DNA of 64,000 nucleotides, from NCBI RefSeq assembly GCF_004297105.1, contig NZ_SCVE01000012.1, positions 558,001 through 622,000 on the forward strand. The letters run 5' to 3'. Position numbers and translations under genes: made by a program. The notes below the pieces were generated by a model. That model did no database searches. It saw only the letters and a list, made by a program, of their open reading frames with translations, and was not told where the DNA came from. This document shows, piece by piece, positions 1,193 to 10,505 of the stretch. The stretch comes from Herbiconiux sp. (lineage in GTDB: Bacteria > Actinomycetota > Actinomycetes > Actinomycetales > Microbacteriaceae). Numbering within the stretch: the first letter of the stretch is position 1; each line of letters begins with the position of its first letter.

Positions 1193-1876
1193 TCAGTCGT
1201 CGCCGAGGAGCATGGCTGCCGCGGCTATCATCTCGAGCATCCGCTCGCGCATGTGGCCGATGTGCTTCTTGACCGCGGGCTCGATCCCGGCGTAGTCGTG
1301 GGCGACCATGGCGTTGTAGAGCTCGTCGTACTCCTCCGCGCAGGAGAGCAGACGGCTCTGCATCGATGCGGCGCGCAACCAGAAGCGCTGGATGCGCCGA
1401 CGCGTCTCGCGCACGGTCTCGGCCACGAGCACATTGCCCGAGAGCGCGTTGGCGTAGCGGTGGAACAGCTGATCGGCGAGCGCCCAGGCGGCGCGGTCGT
1501 CGGCAGCGGCAGCGGCGTACATGTCGTCGACGTAGCCCTTGAGCTTCGCGGCCTCGGCATCGGTGAGCGTGGTGGCGGCCTTGCGGCAGATGTAGGTGTC
1601 GAGCACCTCGAGCAGGTCGCAGGCGTCGTTGACCTCGGTGGCGGTGAGCTGCGACACGGTGAAGCGCGCGTTGTCGGTGCGCTTGACCAGCCCCTCCTTC
1701 TCGAGGCGCTGCAGGGCCTCGCGCACCGGTGTGCGGCTGATGCCGAGCTGACCGGCGAGGCGGTTCTCCGACAGGGGCGAGCCCGATCGCAGCCGGAATC
1801 CCGTGATCTCGGCGAGCAACCACTCATACGCGTCATCGACGCGCGAACCCGCCTCGGCTGAAACGGCCATCATCAC
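1193..1876 (-). CDS. GntR family regulator, FadR/FCD subfamily
   Basis: The 227-residue product has an N-terminal winged helix (about 12-75) with the GntR signature L-S-E-N-R-L-A ... I-S-R-T-P-V-R-E-A-L-Q-R-L-E. A helical FCD ligand-binding domain follows (about 85-215), with the usual Asp and His metal-ligand pattern (H-R-Y-A-N and H-I-G-H-M). Such proteins are metabolite-responsive repressors, often of carboxylate or amino-acid catabolism. No obvious target gene is next to it: it is convergent with the DUF3097 gene and lies downstream of the sigma-factor gene. The start region reads GTG-ATG-ATG (1876, 1873, 1870) after GGGCAGG, so the exact codon is uncertain by two residues. Confidence 0.88.
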   Translation of the reverse strand: MMMAVSAEAGSRVDDAYEWLLAEITGFRLRSGSPLSENRLAGQLGISRTPVREALQRLEKEGLVKRTDNARFTVSQLTATEVNDACDLLEVLDTYICRKAATTLTDAEAAKLKGYVDDMYAAAAADDRAAWALADQLFHRYANALSGNVLVAETVRETRRRIQRFWLRAASMQSRLLSCAEEYDELYNAMVAHDYAGIEPAVKKHIGHMRERMLEMIAAAAMLLGDD

Positions 1877-1892
1877 CTGCCCTCAGCATCCG

Positions 1893-1898
1893 ATTCTA
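1893..1898 (-). promoter_or_regulatory. -10 hexamer TAGAAT for the GntR gene
   Basis: TAGAAT on the minus strand ends 16 nt before the GTG at 1876, predicting a leader of about 10 nt that contains the GGGCAGG ribosome-binding sequence. Confidence 0.4.
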
Positions 1899-1927
1899 GA
1901 CCGGGAAACGGATGCGTCGGACTTTGG

Positions 1928-4195
1928 TCAATCGGGGCGTCCTGCCGCGCCCACTCGCGTGCCGTCGACGTAGCGCACGAAGAAGCCGCCGCTCGGGGCC
2001 AGCCAGGTCGCCGTCCAGTTGCCATCGGCGTTCAGTGTGATGTCGGAGCTCTGGAAAGCGGGGAAGTCGTCGTGGTAGAGCCGCACGGTGCCGTTCGTGG
2101 AGCCGTGCACGGTCACCTGGTAGGAAGTGCCCTCGTCGAGCGTCTCGACAGTGATCGCTGGCGGTGCGTCGAGGGTGACCTGCACGGGTGCGGTCTGCGG
2201 GGAGGTGCCGGCGATGGCGGCACCGGGTGGGGCGGCGTCGGGTGTGTCGGAGTCGCCGGCGCCGGCTGCCCCGCCGGTCGACTCGGTGGGTGCGGTGACG
2301 GTCTGCGTCGCCGTCACCTCGGAGTCGCCGACGCGGAGGTCGTTCAGCGTGAGGTGCCAGACGCCGGTGGTGGGGTCGGCCGTGGTGGTCCACTGGGTCG
2401 ACTCGACGGTGTCGGACGATTCGTTCGCGCCGACGAGCGCGACGGTGATCTGGGCACCGGCGAGTGCCGTGCCGGAGAGGACGGGATAGACGGAGGTGGG
2501 GCCGGGATCGACGGCGATCTGGGGCGCCTCGGGTGGGGTGGGCGCCGATGGGTCGACGGGATCGACCGGGTCGACGGGATCGACGGGGGTGGTCGGAGCG
2601 GGAGGAGTCGGCGTCGGCGGGACACGGGAGGCATCGCCGGAGAGCGTTTGCGGGGTGGCGTCGGCCGGGGCATCCGGAACCGGAGTTCTGCGCGGTGACG
2701 TGATGACCGGATCCGTGGGAATCGGAGGGTCTACGGGGTCGTCCACGATCGGGGCAGGGGACGGCTCGGCGGGATCGCTCGGCGTCGCGGTGTCGGATGG
2801 GGGCGCACTCGGCGACGTGGCCGCCTCGACGACCGCGACCTCGCCGCCACCGCCCCACAGCGGTCCGGCGACGAGGGCGACGGCGACCCCGGCGCCCGCC
2901 AACACGGCGACCCCGGCTGCGACGAGACCCGCGATGGCTCCGGCGGCCAGGCCTCCGCCCGCGGACCCCGCTCCGGCACCGGCGCCGCCGCCCGCGGGGC
3001 CGCTCGACCCCGCCCCTGCACCGGGGCCGGCGCCGGCGGCAGAGCTCGTGGCCGTGGTGGCACCCACGGGCGAACCCGAACCCGCGGCCGAACCCGCGCC
3101 CGCGGTCGCGCCCGTGGCCGTGGTCGCGCCGGTGCCCGTGGTCGCGCCCGCGGTCGCGCCCGTGGCCGTGGTCGCGCCGGTGCCCGTGGTCGCGCCCGCG
3201 GTCGTGGCCGCGTGCACGCCGGTGGTTGCTCCTGCAGCCGCGCCCGATCCGAGGCCCGCACCCGCGCTCGACACACCACCGGAAGCCGCACCCGCAGCCG
3301 CGCCCGATCCGAGGCCCGCACCCGCGCTCGACACACCACCGGAAGCCGCACCCGGCCCGAGGCCCGCACCCGTCGCAGCACCACCGAAGGCGGCGGCCGT
3401 CGCTGCCGCGACCGCACCGTGCTGCACCGAGGCGAGGTAGGCACTGGCGCCTGCCGCGCCCGCCGCGAGCGGGAGAAGCACGAGGGCGAGACGGGAGCCG
3501 ACCTGGGAGGCCTCTTCGGCCACGATCTGGCACTGCGCGCATCCGTCGAGGTGCTCCGAGACCTTCGCCGTGGCCCGCGCACCCAGGGAACCGCGCGTGT
3601 AGGCCGCCAGGCGCTCGATGGTGGTGCGGCACTCGGGAGCAGTGGAGGCGGAGGCGAGGTGCGCCGTGATCCAGGCCTGCCGCAGCCCTTCGCGGGCGCG
3701 CACGGCGAGGGCCGCGACCGCGTTCGGCTTCATGCCCACGAGCGCCGACACATGACGGGGACTCATGGCCTCGACCTCGGTGTACCAGAGCACCTCCTGC
3801 CAGCGCGAAGGCAGGGTTCGGAACGCCCGCGCAGTGGTCGAGCGGTCGAGCGCCGCGAGCATCTCGTCTTCGCTCGTGCTGGGGTCTTCGAGGTCGTCGA
3901 CGTCGTCGATCGGCACGGCCTGCGACGTGCGCCCCCAGCTGGAGGCGACGTTGCGCACGGTGGTGAAGAGATAGGGCCGGAACGCGCCGGTCGGCCCACC
4001 GCCCGCACGGATGGCCGCGAACACCTTCGCGAACGCCTCCGCCACCAGGTCGTCGGCATCGAAGCTGCTGGCGGCGCGCGCGACCGTCAGCGCTGCTGCC
4101 GAATGACGGCGCCACAATTCGGCGAACGCCGCCTGATCGCCGGCCCGTGTTCTCTCGATGAGTTCACCGTCAGGCGCGACGGAATCGTGCTTCAT
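1928..4195 (-). CDS. ECF sigma factor fused to zinc finger, membrane and Ig-like domains
   Basis: The 755-residue protein begins with sigma-70 region 2 (about 8-80) and region 4 (about 125-175, with the L-P-S-R-W-Q-E-V-L-W start). Residues 215-222 (H-L-D-G-C-A-Q-C) form the HX3CX2C zinc motif of anti-sigma factors. Next come a hydrophobic stretch (about 236-255), a Gly/Ala/Ser/Thr repeat region (about 258-425), a strong membrane segment (about 416-447), a Pro/Thr linker, and two C-terminal beta-sandwich-like modules (about 560-650 and 670-750). ECF factors with fused membrane tails are known in actinobacteria; sensing an envelope cue is inference. I place the start at the second ATG (4195), preceded by GGAAAG at 6 nt. 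The frame is open upstream to 4297 and a start at 4213 is possible. Topology depends on whether the first hydrophobic stretch spans the membrane. Confidence 0.82.
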   Translation of the reverse strand: MKHDSVAPDGELIERTRAGDQAAFAELWRRHSAAALTVARAASSFDADDLVAEAFAKVFAAIRAGGGPTGAFRPYLFTTVRNVASSWGRTSQAVPIDDVDDLEDPSTSEDEMLAALDRSTTARAFRTLPSRWQEVLWYTEVEAMSPRHVSALVGMKPNAVAALAVRAREGLRQAWITAHLASASTAPECRTTIERLAAYTRGSLGARATAKVSEHLDGCAQCQIVAEEASQVGSRLALVLLPLAAGAAGASAYLASVQHGAVAAATAAAFGGAATGAGLGPGAASGGVSSAGAGLGSGAAAGAASGGVSSAGAGLGSGAAAGATTGVHAATTAGATTGTGATTATGATAGATTGTGATTATGATAGAGSAAGSGSPVGATTATSSAAGAGPGAGAGSSGPAGGGAGAGAGSAGGGLAAGAIAGLVAAGVAVLAGAGVAVALVAGPLWGGGGEVAVVEAATSPSAPPSDTATPSDPAEPSPAPIVDDPVDPPIPTDPVITSPRRTPVPDAPADATPQTLSGDASRVPPTPTPPAPTTPVDPVDPVDPVDPSAPTPPEAPQIAVDPGPTSVYPVLSGTALAGAQITVALVGANESSDTVESTQWTTTADPTTGVWHLTLNDLRVGDSEVTATQTVTAPTESTGGAAGAGDSDTPDAAPPGAAIAGTSPQTAPVQVTLDAPPAITVETLDEGTSYQVTVHGSTNGTVRLYHDDFPAFQSSDITLNADGNWTATWLAPSGGFFVRYVDGTRVGAAGRPD
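3108..3203 (-). repeat. two tandem 48-bp units inside the sigma-fusion gene
   Basis: The 48-bp unit at 3108-3155 is repeated at 3156-3203. It encodes 16 residues of Ala/Gly/Thr-rich sequence (G-A-T-T-G-T-G-A-T-T-A-T-G-A-T-A), so gain or loss of a unit keeps the frame. Confidence 0.85.
3241..3354 (-). repeat. 60-bp tandem repeat inside the sigma-fusion gene
   Basis: Bases 3241-3294 recur identically at 3301-3354, giving a period of exactly 60 bp (20 residues). The encoded module is Gly/Ala/Ser-rich with the core G-G-V-S-S-A-G-A-G-L-G-S-G. A third, partly matching copy follows toward 3380. Confidence 0.88.
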
Positions 4196-4424
4196 CTCGT
4201 TCTTTCCGCCCATCCCCGGTTCCAGTGTACGCAGCCTCTCCTCACTGAGAGAGACGCGCGGATGCGGGAAACGTGACGCCGCTCCGGGCGCCGACATTCA
4301 GGCACGCCGCGTGCAGAGCCCCGATCGGGGACTCGTTCTCCCGGCGCATCTGTGCTTTCCGCCGTTTCTCGCCACAGCGTGGCCGAAATCGGCCTGACTG
4401 CGAGAAGAGCGCAAGAAACGGGCG

Positions 4425-4430
4425 TAGCAT
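4425..4430 (+). promoter_or_regulatory. -10 hexamer TAGCAT, leaderless start
   Basis: TAGCAT lies 6 nt before the ATG at 4437 with no Shine-Dalgarno sequence between. It marks the promoter of the AsnC-GntR pair. Confidence 0.5.
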
Positions 4431-4436
4431 CGCGGG

Positions 4437-4865
4437 ATGGACGCTTTGGACCACCGGATCATCGACCTGTTGAAAATCAACTCACGCAGTGGCTACGGCG
4501 ACATCGGGCAGGTGATCGGGCTCTCCGCCTCGGCCGTGAAACGTCGCATCGACAGGCTCGTGGCCGACAACGTGATCACGGGATTCACGATCCAGCTGAA
4601 CCCCGCCCTCGACGGCACCGTCACCGAGGCGTACGTCGAGCTCTTCTGCCGCGGCACCGTCGCCCCGGCCGAGCTCAAACGCATTCTGTCGGGGGTGCCC
4701 GAAGTGGTCGACGCGGGCACCGTCACCGGAAGCGCCGACGCGATCGTGCACATCCGTTCGCGCGACATCCCGAGCCTCGAGGATGCGCTGGAGCGGGTGC
4801 GGATCGCCCCGAACGTCGATCACACGCGCAGCGCGATCGTTCTGTCGAACCTGATCCGGCGATGA
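4437..4865 (+). CDS. Lrp/AsnC family regulator
   Basis: At 142 residues this is the usual Lrp/AsnC size. The N-terminus is the family's helix-turn-helix: L-D-H-R-I-I-D-L-L (4-12), then S-A-S-A-V-K-R-R-I-D-R-L as recognition helix. A RAM-type effector domain (about 65-138) follows. These regulators sense amino acids and form octamers. The stop codon overlaps the ATG of the next regulator (ATGA), so the two are translationally coupled. The pair faces the end of putA tail to tail. Proline or amino-acid control is therefore conceivable but is only inference. Confidence 0.88.
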   Translation: MDALDHRIIDLLKINSRSGYGDIGQVIGLSASAVKRRIDRLVADNVITGFTIQLNPALDGTVTEAYVELFCRGTVAPAELKRILSGVPEVVDAGTVTGSADAIVHIRSRDIPSLEDALERVRIAPNVDHTRSAIVLSNLIRR

Positions 4866-5351: not shown

Positions 5352-8300
5352 CTACTCGAACAGGGCGTCCATCAGCACGCTCGGATTGCCGAAACGGTGG
5401 TTGGTGACGCTCACCACCTGCTCCACGAGGAACGGCAGCAGTTCGATGCGACCCGCGCGCGTGACCTCCCCGGCGTACACGGCCAGGTCGGGCGAACCAC
5501 CGAGGGCCACGGCGAGCGCCCCCGCGTCTCCGCCGATCAGACGGATGCGCGACACCTCCCCGAGATACTCCGGCACCCGCGCCAGCCAGGCCGAGTCGTT
5601 CTCGATCACGACGCGCACCCCGCGCTCTTTCAGCAGCAGGCGCAGCGGCTTCGGCAGCTTCAGCGCCGAGCTCAGCGTCACCGTGGAGCGGGCGAGGGTC
5701 GCTGCGGCCAGGACGCGCACCAGCTCGTGCAGGGGCGAACCCTCGGAGAGCCTCACCACGACGGGGACGGGCAGGTACCGCAGCACGTTGAGCTCGACGC
5801 CGAGCTGCGACTCGTCGCGCGCGGCGAAAGTGCTCGACCAGGCGGCCTGGTCGCTCTTCGCGCCCCTCCGTGCGAGGTCGAAGTCGCTCCACTCGAGCCC
5901 GCCGGTCGAGGCCTCCAGCAGCTGCACCACCCGCGGCTCCAGCCCGGCGAGACTCAGACCGTCACTGGCGTCTCCCGGGTCGTTGCGCCAGCGCCCGAGG
6001 TGCACGAGGTAGTTCGGCCCTCCGGCCTTCGCCCCGGCGCCGACGGACGACCTCTTCCATCCGCCGAAGGGCTGCCGCCGCACGATCGCACCCGTGATGC
6101 CCCTGTTGACGTAGAGGTTTCCGGCCTCGACCGTCGCCAGCCACTGGTCGATCTCGAGGGCGTCGAGCGAGTGGATGCCCGCGGTGAGGCCGTAGGGCAC
6201 GGCGTTCTGCATCTCGACGGCCTTCTCGAGGGTCGGCGCCTGCATGATGCCGAGCACCGGCCCGAAGTACTCCGTGAGGTGGAACGCGGTTCCCGGAAGC
6301 ACACCGTCGCGCACGCCCGGTGACCACAGCCGGCCGCTGTCGTCGAGGCGCCGCGGCTCCACCAGCCAGCGCTCTCCGGCACCCAGGGTGGTGAGCGCCT
6401 CGGCCAGCTTGCCCGAGGCCGGCTCGATGAGCGGCCCCATCTGCACCGACGGGTCATCCGGGTACCCCACGCGGAGCGACGTGACCGCGTCGACGAGCTG
6501 CCGCGCGAACCGCTTCGACTGCGCCACCGAGCCCACCAGGATGACGAGACTCGCTGCGGAGCACTTCTGCCCGGCGTGCCCGAACGCGCTCTTCACGACA
6601 TCCGCCACCGCGAGATCGAGGTCGGCGCTCGGGGTGACGACGATGGCGTTCTTGCCGCTCGTCTCGGCGAGGAGCGGCAGATCGGGCCGCCAGGAGCGGA
6701 ACAGGGCCGCGGTGTCGTATGCGCCGGTGAGGATGAGGCGGTCGACCCGGGCATCCGACATCAGGCGCCGGCCCAGGTCGCCCTCATCGACGTCGACGAG
6801 CACGAGCAGTTCGCGGGGGATGCCCGACTCCCACAGGGCCTCGGCCAGCACCGCGGCAGAGCGCTTCGCCTGCGGAGCGGGCTTGATGATCACGGCACTG
6901 CCCGCCGCGAGGGCCGCGAGCACCGAACCTGCGGGAATCGCCACCGGGAAGTTCCACGGCGGTGCGACGACGGTGAGTGTCGACGGCTCGAACACGGCGC
7001 CTTCGACCGCATCGAGTTCGACCGCGGTGTGCGCGTAGTAGTTCGCGAAGTCGATGGCCTCGCTCACCTCGGGGTCGCCCTGGTCGATCGTCTTGCCGGT
7101 CTCGGCGGCCATGACCTCGACGAGGCGGTCGCGGTTGGACTCCAGCGCATAGCCCGCCCGGCGGATGAATCCGGCGCGATCGGAGGCGGGCCGCGCCCCC
7201 CACGCCCGGCCCGCGATGATGGCGCCCTGCACGATGGCCTCGAGGGCGGCCTCCTGGTCGACGCGCGCCGCCTCGATGGTGGCGAGGCCGAGTGCCGAAC
7301 CGGGAACCCGGGCCAGGATGCGCGCACCCCACACCCGGTTCGCGAGAAGGGATGGATCGGTGTCGGCCGCGTTGTGGAAGGCGGCGGTGGCGGGCTCGAT
7401 GTCGCCGCTGAGCCGGTCTTGCCGTCGGTTCGGCAGGGGCGCCGGGGCGTCGGCGCCCTGCACGGCCGCCTCCTCCTCGGTTGCTCCGAGCCCCGCGAGC
7501 GAGAGCAGGAAGCGGTCGCGCTCGGTGGCGAATGCCGCCGGATCCGATGCCAGGTCGAACACCGACGACATGAAGTTCTCGTCGCTGGCGTTCTCCTCGA
7601 GGCGCCGCACGAGGTAGCCGATGGCCACATCGAACTCGGCGGGCGCGACCACCGGTGTGTAGAGCACCAGCCGGCCGACCGTGGCCCGCACGGCGTCGGC
7701 CTGCGCCGTGGCCATGCCGAGCAGCATCTCGAAGTCGACGGCATCCGTGACACCACGCTGACCCGCGAGGAGCCACGCCCACGCGATGTCGAAGAGGTTG
7801 TGGCCGGCGACTCCGATGCGCACCGCATCGGTGTGCTCGGGGCGCAGCGCCCAGTCGAGCACACGCTTGTAGTTGGTGTCGGTATCGACCTTCGCCCCAT
7901 AGGTGGCCAGCGGCCAGTCGTGCAGCGCCGAGTCGACGCGCTCGAGAGCGAGGTTGGCACCCTTCACCACACGCACCTTGATGGGCGCGCCGCCTCGGGA
8001 ACGCCGCTCTGCCGCCCACACCTGCAAGCCCTGGAGTGCCCCGAGCGCGTCGGGAAGATAGGCCTGAAGCACGATGCCGCCCTCGAAGTCAAGGAAGTCG
8101 GGCTCGTCGAGCACGCGCTTGAACACCGCGATGGTGAGGTCGAGGTCTCGATACTCCTCCATGTCGAGGTTGATGAACTTGCGCGGACCATCGTCGCCCA
8201 CCAGCCCCTTGCGCGCCGCGACGCGATAGAGCGGGATGAGGCTCTGCGCGACGCGTTCGACCGTCTGCTCGAACCCCCACATCGAGAGATCGGCTGCGAT

Positions 8301-8870
8301 CGACGAGACCTTCACCGACACGTAGTCGACATCGTCACGCTGCAGCAGCTCGCGCGTGCCCTCGAGCCGATTGCCCGCCTCCCGGTCGCCGAGCACCGCC
8401 TCACCGAGCAGATTGATGTTGAGCCGCACGCCACCCTGCCCCGAGCGGGCGCGCAGGGCCGCGACCGCTGGCCCGAACTTCGCGGGCCGGGCGTCGACGA
8501 TCAGGTGCCCCACCATCGACCGGAGCACTCGCCGCGCAATCGGCACCACGACGCCTGGCAGCGCCTCGCCGACCACTCCGCCGGCCTGCACCGCCGAGCG
8601 CAGGTACCACGGCAGGAACCGCGGAACCCGCTTCGCGAGCAGCCCGAGATTGCGGGCCGCGACCGTGAGGTCTTCGGGACGGGCGACGCCGTCGACGAAG
8701 CCGACCGTGAAGCCGAGGCCGTCGGGGTCTTTCAGCACGCCGGCCAGCCGGGCCGCCGAGGGATCGACCGCCGCGCTCCGGCTCTCGTCGAGCCACCGGC
8801 GTGCCAGCTCGACCGCCTCGCGCCCCAGGTCTGCGGAGGCGGCGGGAGGGGTGACGAGGGGCTCGGACAT
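5352..8870 (-). CDS. putA: bifunctional proline dehydrogenase / glutamate-semialdehyde dehydrogenase
   Basis: The 1172-residue PutA oxidises proline to glutamate in two steps: FAD-dependent proline dehydrogenase (about 40-430) and NAD-dependent P5C dehydrogenase (about 520-960). The ALDH half shows the general-base motif L-A-E-T-S-G-K (E736) and nucleophile motif G-H-A-G-Q-K-C-S (C770). The PRODH half shows the barrel motif L-D-M-E-E-Y-R-D-L. There is no N-terminal ribbon-helix-helix domain, so it is not the autoregulatory enteric type. A C-terminal region of about 200 residues follows the ALDH domain, as in many long PutA proteins. The ATG at 8870 has TATTGT 6 nt upstream; the frame is open to 8960 but that part runs across the divergent promoter. 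Confidence 0.96.
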   Translation of the reverse strand: MSEPLVTPPAASADLGREAVELARRWLDESRSAAVDPSAARLAGVLKDPDGLGFTVGFVDGVARPEDLTVAARNLGLLAKRVPRFLPWYLRSAVQAGGVVGEALPGVVVPIARRVLRSMVGHLIVDARPAKFGPAVAALRARSGQGGVRLNINLLGEAVLGDREAGNRLEGTRELLQRDDVDYVSVKVSSIAADLSMWGFEQTVERVAQSLIPLYRVAARKGLVGDDGPRKFINLDMEEYRDLDLTIAVFKRVLDEPDFLDFEGGIVLQAYLPDALGALQGLQVWAAERRSRGGAPIKVRVVKGANLALERVDSALHDWPLATYGAKVDTDTNYKRVLDWALRPEHTDAVRIGVAGHNLFDIAWAWLLAGQRGVTDAVDFEMLLGMATAQADAVRATVGRLVLYTPVVAPAEFDVAIGYLVRRLEENASDENFMSSVFDLASDPAAFATERDRFLLSLAGLGATEEEAAVQGADAPAPLPNRRQDRLSGDIEPATAAFHNAADTDPSLLANRVWGARILARVPGSALGLATIEAARVDQEAALEAIVQGAIIAGRAWGARPASDRAGFIRRAGYALESNRDRLVEVMAAETGKTIDQGDPEVSEAIDFANYYAHTAVELDAVEGAVFEPSTLTVVAPPWNFPVAIPAGSVLAALAAGSAVIIKPAPQAKRSAAVLAEALWESGIPRELLVLVDVDEGDLGRRLMSDARVDRLILTGAYDTAALFRSWRPDLPLLAETSGKNAIVVTPSADLDLAVADVVKSAFGHAGQKCSAASLVILVGSVAQSKRFARQLVDAVTSLRVGYPDDPSVQMGPLIEPASGKLAEALTTLGAGERWLVEPRRLDDSGRLWSPGVRDGVLPGTAFHLTEYFGPVLGIMQAPTLEKAVEMQNAVPYGLTAGIHSLDALEIDQWLATVEAGNLYVNRGITGAIVRRQPFGGWKRSSVGAGAKAGGPNYLVHLGRWRNDPGDASDGLSLAGLEPRVVQLLEASTGGLEWSDFDLARRGAKSDQAAWSSTFAARDESQLGVELNVLRYLPVPVVVRLSEGSPLHELVRVLAAATLARSTVTLSSALKLPKPLRLLLKERGVRVVIENDSAWLARVPEYLGEVSRIRLIGGDAGALAVALGGSPDLAVYAGEVTRAGRIELLPFLVEQVVSVTNHRFGNPSVLMDALFE

Positions 8871-8876
8871 GCTTCG

Positions 8877-8882
8877 ACAATA
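8877..8882 (-). promoter_or_regulatory. -10 hexamer TATTGT for putA, leaderless start
   Basis: TATTGT on the minus strand ends 6 nt before the putA ATG. The divergent oxidoreductase -10 box lies only 18 bp away, so the two promoters are back to back and may compete or share a regulator. Confidence 0.5.
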
Positions 8883-8900
8883 GATCGTGACACGCCGCAT

Positions 8901-8906
8901 TAGGCT
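8901..8906 (+). promoter_or_regulatory. -10 hexamer TAGGCT for the FAD oxidoreductase, leaderless start
   Basis: TAGGCT ends 6 nt before the ATG at 8913. No Shine-Dalgarno sequence is present. Confidence 0.5.
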
Positions 8907-8912
8907 CAAGGC

Positions 8913-10505
8913 ATGCGAGCTGTGGATGACTTCGACGTCATCGTCATCGGTGGAGGACACAACGGCCTGGTCGCCGCGGCCTACCTCGCCCGGGCCGGCC
9001 GCAGGGTCTGTCTGCTCGAACGGCTGGAGGATGTCGGGGGCGCCGCGGTCTCCACATATGCGTTCGAGGGAATGGATGCGAAGCTCTCCCGCTACTCCTA
9101 CCTCGTGAGTCTCCTCCCGCAGAAGATCGTCGACGAGCTCGGTCTCACGATCGAACTCCGCCGTCGCCGGTATTCGAGCTACACCCCCCTCCCCGGCAGC
9201 GATCTCGGCCTCCTGATCGACAATGACGACCCGGACGCGACCCGAGCCTCCTTCGATGCGCTCGGCTCCTCCTCCGATGCGCTCGCCTTCGACGCCCTCG
9301 GTGCCGACCTGCTCCGTGTGGCCGCCGCGCTCTGGCCCACCGTCACCGAACCGCTGCCCACCCGCTCGGAGGTGAAGCGGATGCTGGCCGACGACGCACT
9401 CTGGGCCGACCTGGTCGAGCGGCCCATCGGCGCGATGATTCGCGAGCGGTTCGCCGATGACCTCGTGCGAGGGGTCGTGGCCACCGACTCCCTCATCGGC
9501 ACCTTCGCCTCGCTCGACGACCCCTCACTGATCCAGAACATCTGCTTCCTGTATCACGTGATCGGCCGCGGCACCGGGGACTGGGATGTGCCCGTCGGCG
9601 GCATGGGCGCCGTCACCGGTGAGCTCGCGCGAGCGGCACGGGAAGCGGGTGTGGACATCCGCACCGGCGTGGAAGTCGTCGCGGTCACCCCGGAGGGCCG
9701 AGTCGACTTCCGCGACTCCGATGGCGTCACGAGAGCGCTCACGGCCACCCGTCTCCTGGCGAACGTCGCTCCGACCGTGCTGGCGGGTCTCCTCGGCGAT
9801 CGCGACATTCCCTCAGCGGAATACGCCGCATCCGATGCTCCCGAGGGTGCTCAGGTCAAGGTGAACATGCTCCTGAAGCGGCTTCCCCGGCTCCGGGACC
9901 CGTCGGTCGAACCGGCCGCGGCGTTCGGCGGCACGTTCCACATCAATGAGCTCGCCAGCCAGCTCGAGCGCGCGCACGAGCAGGCCGCCGACGGGAGAAT
10001 CCCGCATCCTCTCCCCGCGGAGATCTATTGCCATTCGCTCACCGATCCGAGCATCCTGTCGCCCGAGCTGCAGGAGACGGGCGCCCAGACGCTCACGGTG
10101 TTCGGACTGCACGTGCCGCACCGCCTGGTGGCCGAGGGAGTCGCCGATGCGGCGGCGCTCCAGACCGCCATCGTCGCGTCGCTCGACAGCGTGCTCGCGG
10201 AGCCGATCTCCGACCTGCTCCTCACCGATGCGAACGGCGCCCCCTGCATCGAGACGAAGACCACCGCCGACCTCGAGCGCACCCTCGGCATGCCCGGGGG
10301 CAACATCTTCCACGGCCCGCTGAGCTGGCCGTTCCTCGACGACGATGAGCCCCGCGGCACGGCCGCCGAGCGCTGGGGTGTCGCGACGGCGCACGAGCGC
10401 ATCCTGATCTGCGGATCGGGCTCACGCCGTGGCGGCGCGGTCTCCGGTCTGGGCGGCCACAGTGCGGCCATGGCCGTGCTCGACGACGACCTCGACCGCG
10501 GCTGA
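8913..10505 (+). CDS. FAD-dependent phytoene-desaturase-like oxidoreductase
   Basis: This 530-residue flavoprotein starts with a Rossmann dinucleotide fold (8-30, V-I-V-I-G-G-G-H-N-G-L-V-A-A) followed by the E-x(4-6)-G-G motif near residue 40. The C-terminal end has the second FAD-contacting segment (G-S-G-S-R-R-G-G-A-V-S-G-L-G-G-H). The overall pattern is that of the NAD(P)/FAD oxidoreductases related to phytoene desaturase and vertebrate PYROXD2. The substrate is unknown. No carotenoid gene is nearby, so carotenoid synthesis is unlikely. It is divergent from putA with 42 bp between starts, so co-regulation is possible. Confidence 0.85.
   Translation: MRAVDDFDVIVIGGGHNGLVAAAYLARAGRRVCLLERLEDVGGAAVSTYAFEGMDAKLSRYSYLVSLLPQKIVDELGLTIELRRRRYSSYTPLPGSDLGLLIDNDDPDATRASFDALGSSSDALAFDALGADLLRVAAALWPTVTEPLPTRSEVKRMLADDALWADLVERPIGAMIRERFADDLVRGVVATDSLIGTFASLDDPSLIQNICFLYHVIGRGTGDWDVPVGGMGAVTGELARAAREAGVDIRTGVEVVAVTPEGRVDFRDSDGVTRALTATRLLANVAPTVLAGLLGDRDIPSAEYAASDAPEGAQVKVNMLLKRLPRLRDPSVEPAAAFGGTFHINELASQLERAHEQAADGRIPHPLPAEIYCHSLTDPSILSPELQETGAQTLTVFGLHVPHRLVAEGVADAAALQTAIVASLDSVLAEPISDLLLTDANGAPCIETKTTADLERTLGMPGGNIFHGPLSWPFLDDDEPRGTAAERWGVATAHERILICGSGSRRGGAVSGLGGHSAAMAVLDDDLDRG

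Follow-up and report, generated by a model that had tools for sequence, protein, structure and literature searches.

A probable membrane-tethered ECF sigma factor fused to its own zinc anti-sigma domain in Herbiconiux

The stretch of DNA analysed here, which we call the window, is 64,000 nucleotides long and comes from a Herbiconiux sp. genome (Microbacteriaceae; contig NZ_SCVE01000012.1, positions 558,001 to 622,000). On its minus strand, at 1928..4195, a gene of 755 codons (ATG at 4195, TGA at 1928) encodes a sigma factor, a zinc anti-sigma motif, hydrophobic segments and two immunoglobulin (Ig)-like modules in one chain, and our analysis confirms the existence of this fused sigma/anti-sigma/surface-domain gene. 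We think it probable that the product is an extracytoplasmic function (ECF) sigma factor joined to a zinc anti-sigma domain of class I and to a sensor that spans the membrane once, and that it belongs to the ECF48, ECF52 and ECF53 kind. Our results support the idea that the sigma factor is tethered through the anti-sigma domain and sensor tail of its own chain, for which proteolysis would be the easiest route to activation. Further leads are a candidate promoter in front of the gene, shared by its close orthologues, and the surface-protein genes that stand beside divergent copies of the family.

Domain layout and relatives of the fused protein

The frame is open without interruption along the whole gene. 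An alternative ATG at 4297 would give 789 residues, but it is an unlikely start because it precedes the promoter-like site described below (4250-4279); the ATG at 4213, below that site, would add six residues and is possible. Within the protein, all on the minus strand, sigma region 2 (residues 29-87; 3935..4111) scores above the Pfam cut-off for PF04542 (Sigma70_r2). Sigma region 4 (residues 123-169; 3689..3829) scores below that for PF08281 (Sigma70_r4_2; 17.2 bits against a cut-off of 25.7), and the whole-sigma model TIGR02937 passes over residues 23-174 (56.9 against 42.9 bits). The protein has sigma-2 and sigma-4 alone and is of ECF type. Next comes a zinc anti-sigma domain (residues 189-223; 3527..3631), above the cut-off for PF13490 and matched by profile to RslA, ChrR and RsiW. 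Its H215-C219-C222 forms the HX3CX2C motif inside a zf-HC2-type domain that marks the class I zinc anti-sigma proteins, and C189, the sole further cysteine of the protein, may be the fourth zinc ligand. In these points the original prediction, which described one polypeptide of about 755 codons with sigma regions 2 and 4 and this zinc motif, was right, and fused relatives agree with it.

The membrane segment or segments that it placed after the zinc motif correspond to two hydrophobic stretches, H1 (residues 232-250; 3446..3502; mean hydropathy 1.58) and H2 (core residues 424-442; 2870..2926; mean hydropathy 2.53), of which H2 is the likely single membrane span. Between them lies the predicted Gly/Ala/Thr tract, an uncharged repeat linker of Ala, Gly, Thr and Ser (about residues 251-423, roughly 173 residues; 2927..3445) that holds no K, R, D or E, and whose DNA contains perfect tandem repeats of 48 bp (2.3 copies) and 60 bp (2 copies). 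From residue 444 to the C-terminus the chain carries 39 D/E and 8 K/R. It begins there with an acidic, proline-rich stretch (457-571; 2483..2827) and ends in two beta-sandwich modules (572-633, 2297..2482; 671-742, 1970..2185); a third hydrophobic stretch at 572-590 (1.61) falls in a strand-rich part of the first of these. An AlphaFold2 (AF2) model of residues 551-755, built on an alignment three sequences deep, shows both modules at a predicted local distance difference test (pLDDT) score of 78.5. Compared by Foldseek with the PDB, they resemble mostly tandem fibronectin type III (FNIII) and Ig domains, the adhesin SiiE among them, with a best E of 1.4e-5 and low TM-scores of 0.24-0.40 on the query across 50 listed matches, and Pfam gives no match to the C-terminal part at E up to 1. 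The module had been called duplicated, which is right only in part: two such modules are present, and one may derive from the other.

The original prediction also took the long repeat tract for an unusual feature, which overstates the case: linker length is variable in the 68 relatives compared (12-169 residues, the upper figure being that of the window protein), and Herbiconiux ginsengi has no tandem DNA repeat at the linker position. We read the tract as a fast-changing tether rather than a functional repeat domain. The tail is exchangeable too, because a Leifsonia relative (L039) carries a LamG-type domain there according to Pfam. NPCBM domains end two loci of Streptomyces-like relatives (L214 and L217), and the tails of the other five relatives given to Pfam had no match.

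Residues 1-244 served as the query for genome searches. Over this N-terminal part the nearest relatives are from H. ginsengi (80% identity), a Microbacteriaceae bacterium (78%) and Agromyces (60%). Matches at 1e-15 were found in 14 of 60 near genomes and, at 1e-25 and with at most nine candidates scored per genome, in 111 of 299 genomes of the family and 46 of its 85 genera. The distribution is patchy inside the genus, where 2 of 15 other genomes have a match. Of 73 frames read from relatives' loci, 72 contain the zinc motif and 68 are at least 370 residues long; two are cut by the sequence end and three are under 300 residues (L043 with 246, L112 with 267 and L122 with 185, the last without the zinc motif). 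L026 and L031 are short as well. On the same strand, the 1.5 kb downstream of L043, L112 and L122 contain no second HX3CX2C frame. The protein of L043 (4992-5729), from Longimycelium, ends after the zinc domain and is a natural soluble form. A stop codon interrupts five of the family-search matches listed (G161, G213, G260 and G300 are among the genomes concerned). Some of these relatives, L122 among them, end soon after the sigma part and may be unfused or broken copies. As for the alignments, A1 took in nine of ten loci plus the window (L045, with 56 matched residues, was left out) and A3 44 of the 70 listed references.

Proposed release of the sigma domain and likely membrane topology

We can picture the protein at work as follows. 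At rest, sigma-4 and sigma-2 would be kept inactive by the zinc domain and H1 farther along their own chain. The flexible, uncharged linker would anchor this complex to H2 in the membrane, and beyond H2 the proline-rich stalk would carry the two Ig-like modules into the cell wall. Some change outside, which we guess to be a cue from the cell wall or from surface proteins, would lay the protein open to proteolysis, first at site 1 and then, by an M50 protease, at site 2. The freed sigma domain would then act at its own promoter, GCGTCAY-N17-RTCTCT, and at a few others. Self-inhibition and activation by proteolysis are both what we infer from this architecture. The host genome does contain an M50 protease gene (G000:C5:178935-180071), which is weak evidence because M50 proteases match in all 14 control genomes. 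The analysis identified no cleavage site, protease partner or signal, which tells against this picture.

Release could also be conformational, outside binding altering the linker or H1 while the sigma factor works membrane-bound. Fused ECF41 and ECF238 factors are described as acting by conformational change in passages of a recent review (PMC8999054), and none of the three window neighbours given to Pfam is a protease gene. Against this, a disordered linker of 169 residues would probably be a poor transmitter, and the models published for an ECF52 relative, so far as the excerpts go, include cleavage, yet also conformational change (PMC8999054, PMC5826349). We hold this route to be rather improbable.

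The original prediction called the topology ambiguous, one span putting the C-terminus outside and two putting it inside. A likely answer can now be given; the charge evidence is mixed. We favour a single span, H2, with the C-terminal Ig-like modules outside, because of the alignment of H1 to ChrR, the arginine-rich linkers of some relatives and the surface-type tails. The hydropathy and charge statistics behind this cover 68 of the 73 frames (four short ones, including the two cut by the sequence end, and one without the zinc motif were left out). H2 is more hydrophobic than H1 in 59 of these 68 relatives. H1 starts about 21 residues past the zinc histidine, and a profile that covers it together with the zinc domain gives an ungapped alignment to ChrR 11-73 (E 7.8e-6). 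RslA and RsiW align over the zinc part only; for H1 the match therefore depends on ChrR, a soluble anti-sigma factor, and is no more than suggestive. In class I anti-sigma domains a fourth helix binds sigma-2, as stated in the source consulted in part (PMC7406223), and the alignment suggests that H1 may be this sigma-binding helix of the anti-sigma domain rather than a membrane span.

It is also conceivable that both H1 and H2 cross the membrane, the Gly/Ala tract then being an external loop and the proline-rich stalk and Ig-like modules lying in the cytoplasm, where they would modulate the sigma factor directly. In the passages available, the review ascribes one or two membrane helices to ECF48, ECF52 and ECF53 (PMC8999054). 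Several of our own observations likewise pull away from a single span: the mean hydropathy of H1 reaches 1.6, enough to span the membrane, in 52 of the 68 relatives; the AF2 model of the N-terminal part does not place H1 (pLDDT under 50) and hence settles nothing on topology; and the flanks of the window's own H2 hold no K or R by flank count. Charge points both ways. K/R before H2 outnumber those after it in 29 of the 68, with the reverse in 6 and ties in 33 (Wilcoxon p 5e-5, ignoring kinship), but thirteen further members trend in the opposite direction (more after in eight, more before in two, three ties), and for this reason charge alone decides nothing. The helical moment, tried as a way of telling H1 from H2, gave no separation (0.11 vs 0.09). 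What tells against two spans is that proline occurs in H1 in 63 of the 68 and in H2 in 15, that D, E, K, R, H, N or Q occurs in H1 in 24 and in H2 in 3, that the linkers of L044 and one L118 member are arginine-rich, which fits a cytoplasmic linker, and that NPCBM, LamG and Ig-like C-termini are surface-type domains. Taken together, we regard a two-span protein as improbable.

Finally, the idea that a sequencing error or frameshift joined two genes, for which the short soluble members (L043, L112, L122) and the five stop-containing matches could be cited, can be dismissed: the fused frame is not such an artefact, because 111 of 299 genomes match and the relatives, instead of having separate sigma and tail genes, show long fusions of at least 370 residues in 68 of 73 frames, two relatives at 80% and 77% identity included, and the window gene itself is a single open frame.

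A promoter-like motif and the genes beside the family

A promoter-like motif, GCGTCAC-N17-GTCTCT, lies at 4250..4279 on the minus strand, 54 nt upstream of the ATG, and is a putative autoregulatory promoter. Its consensus, GCGTCAY-N17-RTCTCT, was found by eye upstream of the sigma gene in close orthologues. The counts that follow come from 91 upstream regions, after duplicates, short hits and short flanks were dropped, with the discovery set included and kinship uncorrected. Members of at least 60% identity have the exact motif in 14 of 28 cases and within two mismatches in 23 of 28; at 50-60% identity the figures are 7 of 18 and 12 of 18. The exact motif then fades to 1 of 18 at 40-50% and 0 of 27 below 40%. 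In 20-fold shuffled controls the exact motif was absent from every class, and about 3% of the top class came within two mismatches. Inside the window, six matches at up to two mismatches compare with 8.4 expected by chance, so that only the exact site is meaningful there. Two exact copies occur in the 3.77 Mb of the host genome, which at up to one mismatch has 18 sites vs 2 for the reversed pattern. Across the family, 119 of 299 genomes have an exact site, and the reversed control occurs in at least 24 genomes among the matches listed (counted by eye); many of the listed exact sites are away from sigma genes, and a number are just upstream of places with a fused sigma gene. Since autoregulation is common among ECF sigma factors, we assign the motif to this one and infer that it reads GCGTCAY-N17-RTCTCT and drives its own gene. 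Scans of 1850-4450 for sigma-70 promoters and terminators found nothing.

The original prediction had proposed looking for the promoter motif in front of envelope genes, an idea that these sites do not support; what the motif marks is the gene of the sigma factor. The other exact copy in the host (G000:C17:877363; L156:1136-1530) lies 5 nt upstream of the ATG that opens a 120-codon frame, a position that could fit a leaderless message. This frame has no Pfam match and no match in 98 other genomes, and because of the latter it may not be a gene. In one genus (sites L182, L185 and L186) the motif precedes small frames in which a common P-C-[AS]-C pattern was noticed by eye, and these are a possible shared target. 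Second copies of the motif also occur on the downstream side of the sigma gene, at a distance of 1.7-1.9 kb from the first (L125:6742-6771, L129:6106-6135, L011:550-579); no clear protein gene goes with them, and they could possibly serve a small RNA or antisense transcript. When second copies, downstream or divergent, were considered together (L125, which equals L021, L129, L011, L047, L055-L057, L068 and L069), no one recognisable gene emerged.

The family is multiplied in some genomes, with 26 matches to the fused sigma factor in one Microbacteriaceae genome (G018) and seven in another genome (G033). We counted upstream neighbours for 72 of the 73 members (one duplicate was dropped), calling sortase-type signals by a simple motif rule. 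A sortase-type frame stands directly upstream on the same strand in 23 of the 72, namely 16 of 22 in G018, 4 of 7 in G033 and 3 of 43 elsewhere, while 11 of 382 control open reading frames (ORFs) from the same loci carry such a signal; the ORFs for this count were picked by length and some may be shadow frames. Among members of at least 50% identity, one of 32 has such a neighbour (L075 of H. ginsengi, 66%), and neither the closer H. ginsengi gene (80%) nor the window copy has a sortase-type partner. This neighbourhood is a trait of divergent copies, mostly from one genome, and does not count as independent support where the window copy is concerned.

In six of the surface-protein frames beside the sigma genes (five lying upstream, that of L095 downstream), Pfam finds Big, SdrD_B, cadherin-like, DUF5979 and collagen-binding domains. 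The N-terminal part of one such protein is matched at 1e-50 or better in 13 places of G018, five weaker matches having been left out; by coordinate comparison, 12 of the 13 adjoin a fused sigma gene, and the 12 kb read for the thirteenth (L134) contain no such gene. We rejected a shared motif upstream of 13 large surface-protein genes of G018 (L135-L147), as its words are hardly above shuffles: TTGGGG (TTGGGGA-like) precedes 11 of 13 vs shuffle maxima of 9-10, and the best dyad reaches 5 vs 3-4. G018 has no exact copy of the window motif. Clustering of ORFs for a conserved neighbour of the window's orthologue group was likewise set aside, since several clusters look like shadow frames in G+C-rich DNA; those we trust are the sortase-type ones alone, checked by their C-terminal signals. 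Among the papers listed by searches of open-licence PMC, judged by title and opening of the abstract, none links fused ECF sigma factors with sortase-anchored proteins. It is tempting to speculate, and we do so tentatively, that the family is a Gram-positive form of surface signalling for sortase-anchored proteins. Each of the multiplied copies would be produced along with a large partner encoded just upstream, sense the display or ligand of that protein through its tail and control the locus, and the window copy, a single-copy orphan with its own promoter code, would read a more general state of the wall or surface.

Around the window gene itself, Pfam identifies a GntR/FCD regulator (1193-1876, minus strand), which follows the sigma gene after about 50 nt on the same strand and is possibly co-transcribed with it, an AsnC/Lrp-type regulator (4437-4865) divergent from it, and a proline dehydrogenase/aldehyde dehydrogenase protein (5352-8960). 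Elsewhere in the host, another sigma-2 match (L005; G000:C12:266030) lies inside a 1317-codon open frame, which may be a second fused protein or a mere open frame in G+C-rich DNA.

Comparison with known fused sigma factors

The novelty of the fusion was overstated in the original prediction. It rightly noted that fused ECF groups are known, and such fusions have been described as ECF48, ECF52 and ECF53, one of them studied in vivo (PMC8999054, PMC5826349). In the parts of these sources consulted, the three groups are fused sigma/zinc anti-sigma proteins of Actinobacteria with one to two membrane helices (PMC8999054), expected to be activated by proteolysis, ECF52 having a carbohydrate-binding tail (PMC8999054, PMC5826349). 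For the Streptomyces coelicolor protein SCO4117, the passages available report a C-terminal carbohydrate-binding domain (smart00776), a printed motif 'CSGYN-17bps-SRHA', two predicted promoter motifs that disagree, and a TetR gene neighbour such as we see in Streptomyces-like loci (PMC5826349), while a sigma-only truncation and cleavage models have been published (PMC8999054, PMC5826349). Like ECF52 and SCO4117, the window protein is actinobacterial and holds sigma-2 and sigma-4, a zf-HC2 zinc finger, a membrane region and a proline-rich extension in one chain. In contrast, no C-terminal carbohydrate-binding domain was found in it by Pfam at E up to 1, and Ig-like modules take its place.

A profile search of 396 genomes of the phylum, with six candidates scored per genome and hence giving a lower bound, matched at least 22 at 1e-40, the host included; 11 of these belong to one family with genomes of about 6-10 Mb and have one match each at that threshold. 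Streptomyces-like loci match the profile of the window family at E 6e-67 to 3e-78. Seven of them were read: they are 35-43% identical to the window protein over the N-terminal part, six of the seven end in apparently one domain by eye, and both of those given to Pfam have NPCBM and an upstream TetR gene. From the NPCBM domain, the TetR neighbour and the published description, these loci appear to be of the SCO4117 kind. In our tree, in which SCO4117 is not knowingly included, the seven form a clade (100/100) separate from that of the window, on an unresolved backbone. The deep forks of this tree are unsafe, because the outgroup does not stay outside: of its four sigma factors, two sit within the tree on long branches.

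ECF48 and ECF53, compared by description only, share the fused zinc anti-sigma domain and membrane helices and the actinobacterial hosts. IutY of Pseudomonas putida (ECF243) also has a sigma factor and a membrane anti-sigma part in one chain and, as the review's passages state, is activated by Prc and RseP (PMC8999054); again by description, it differs in serving siderophore signalling in a Gram-negative bacterium. The likeness to ChrR, RslA and RsiW is one of zinc-domain homology. These three are separate proteins, unfused to their sigma factor.

According to the sections of the 2022 review that we draw on, at least 26 ECF groups have regulatory extensions, and 15 of them are called unstudied (PMC8999054). 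In this setting, the sharp candidate promoter, with its fixed 17-base spacer in the window's orthologue group, offers a direct activity reporter, and the sortase-protein neighbourhood of the paralogues offers a concrete guess at the signal. Together, promoter and neighbourhood would make the release of fused sigma factors testable in environmental actinobacteria. The window protein is of a known kind, with a tail variant not filed under ECF52, a new candidate promoter, and the lead towards surface partners that its paralogues provide.

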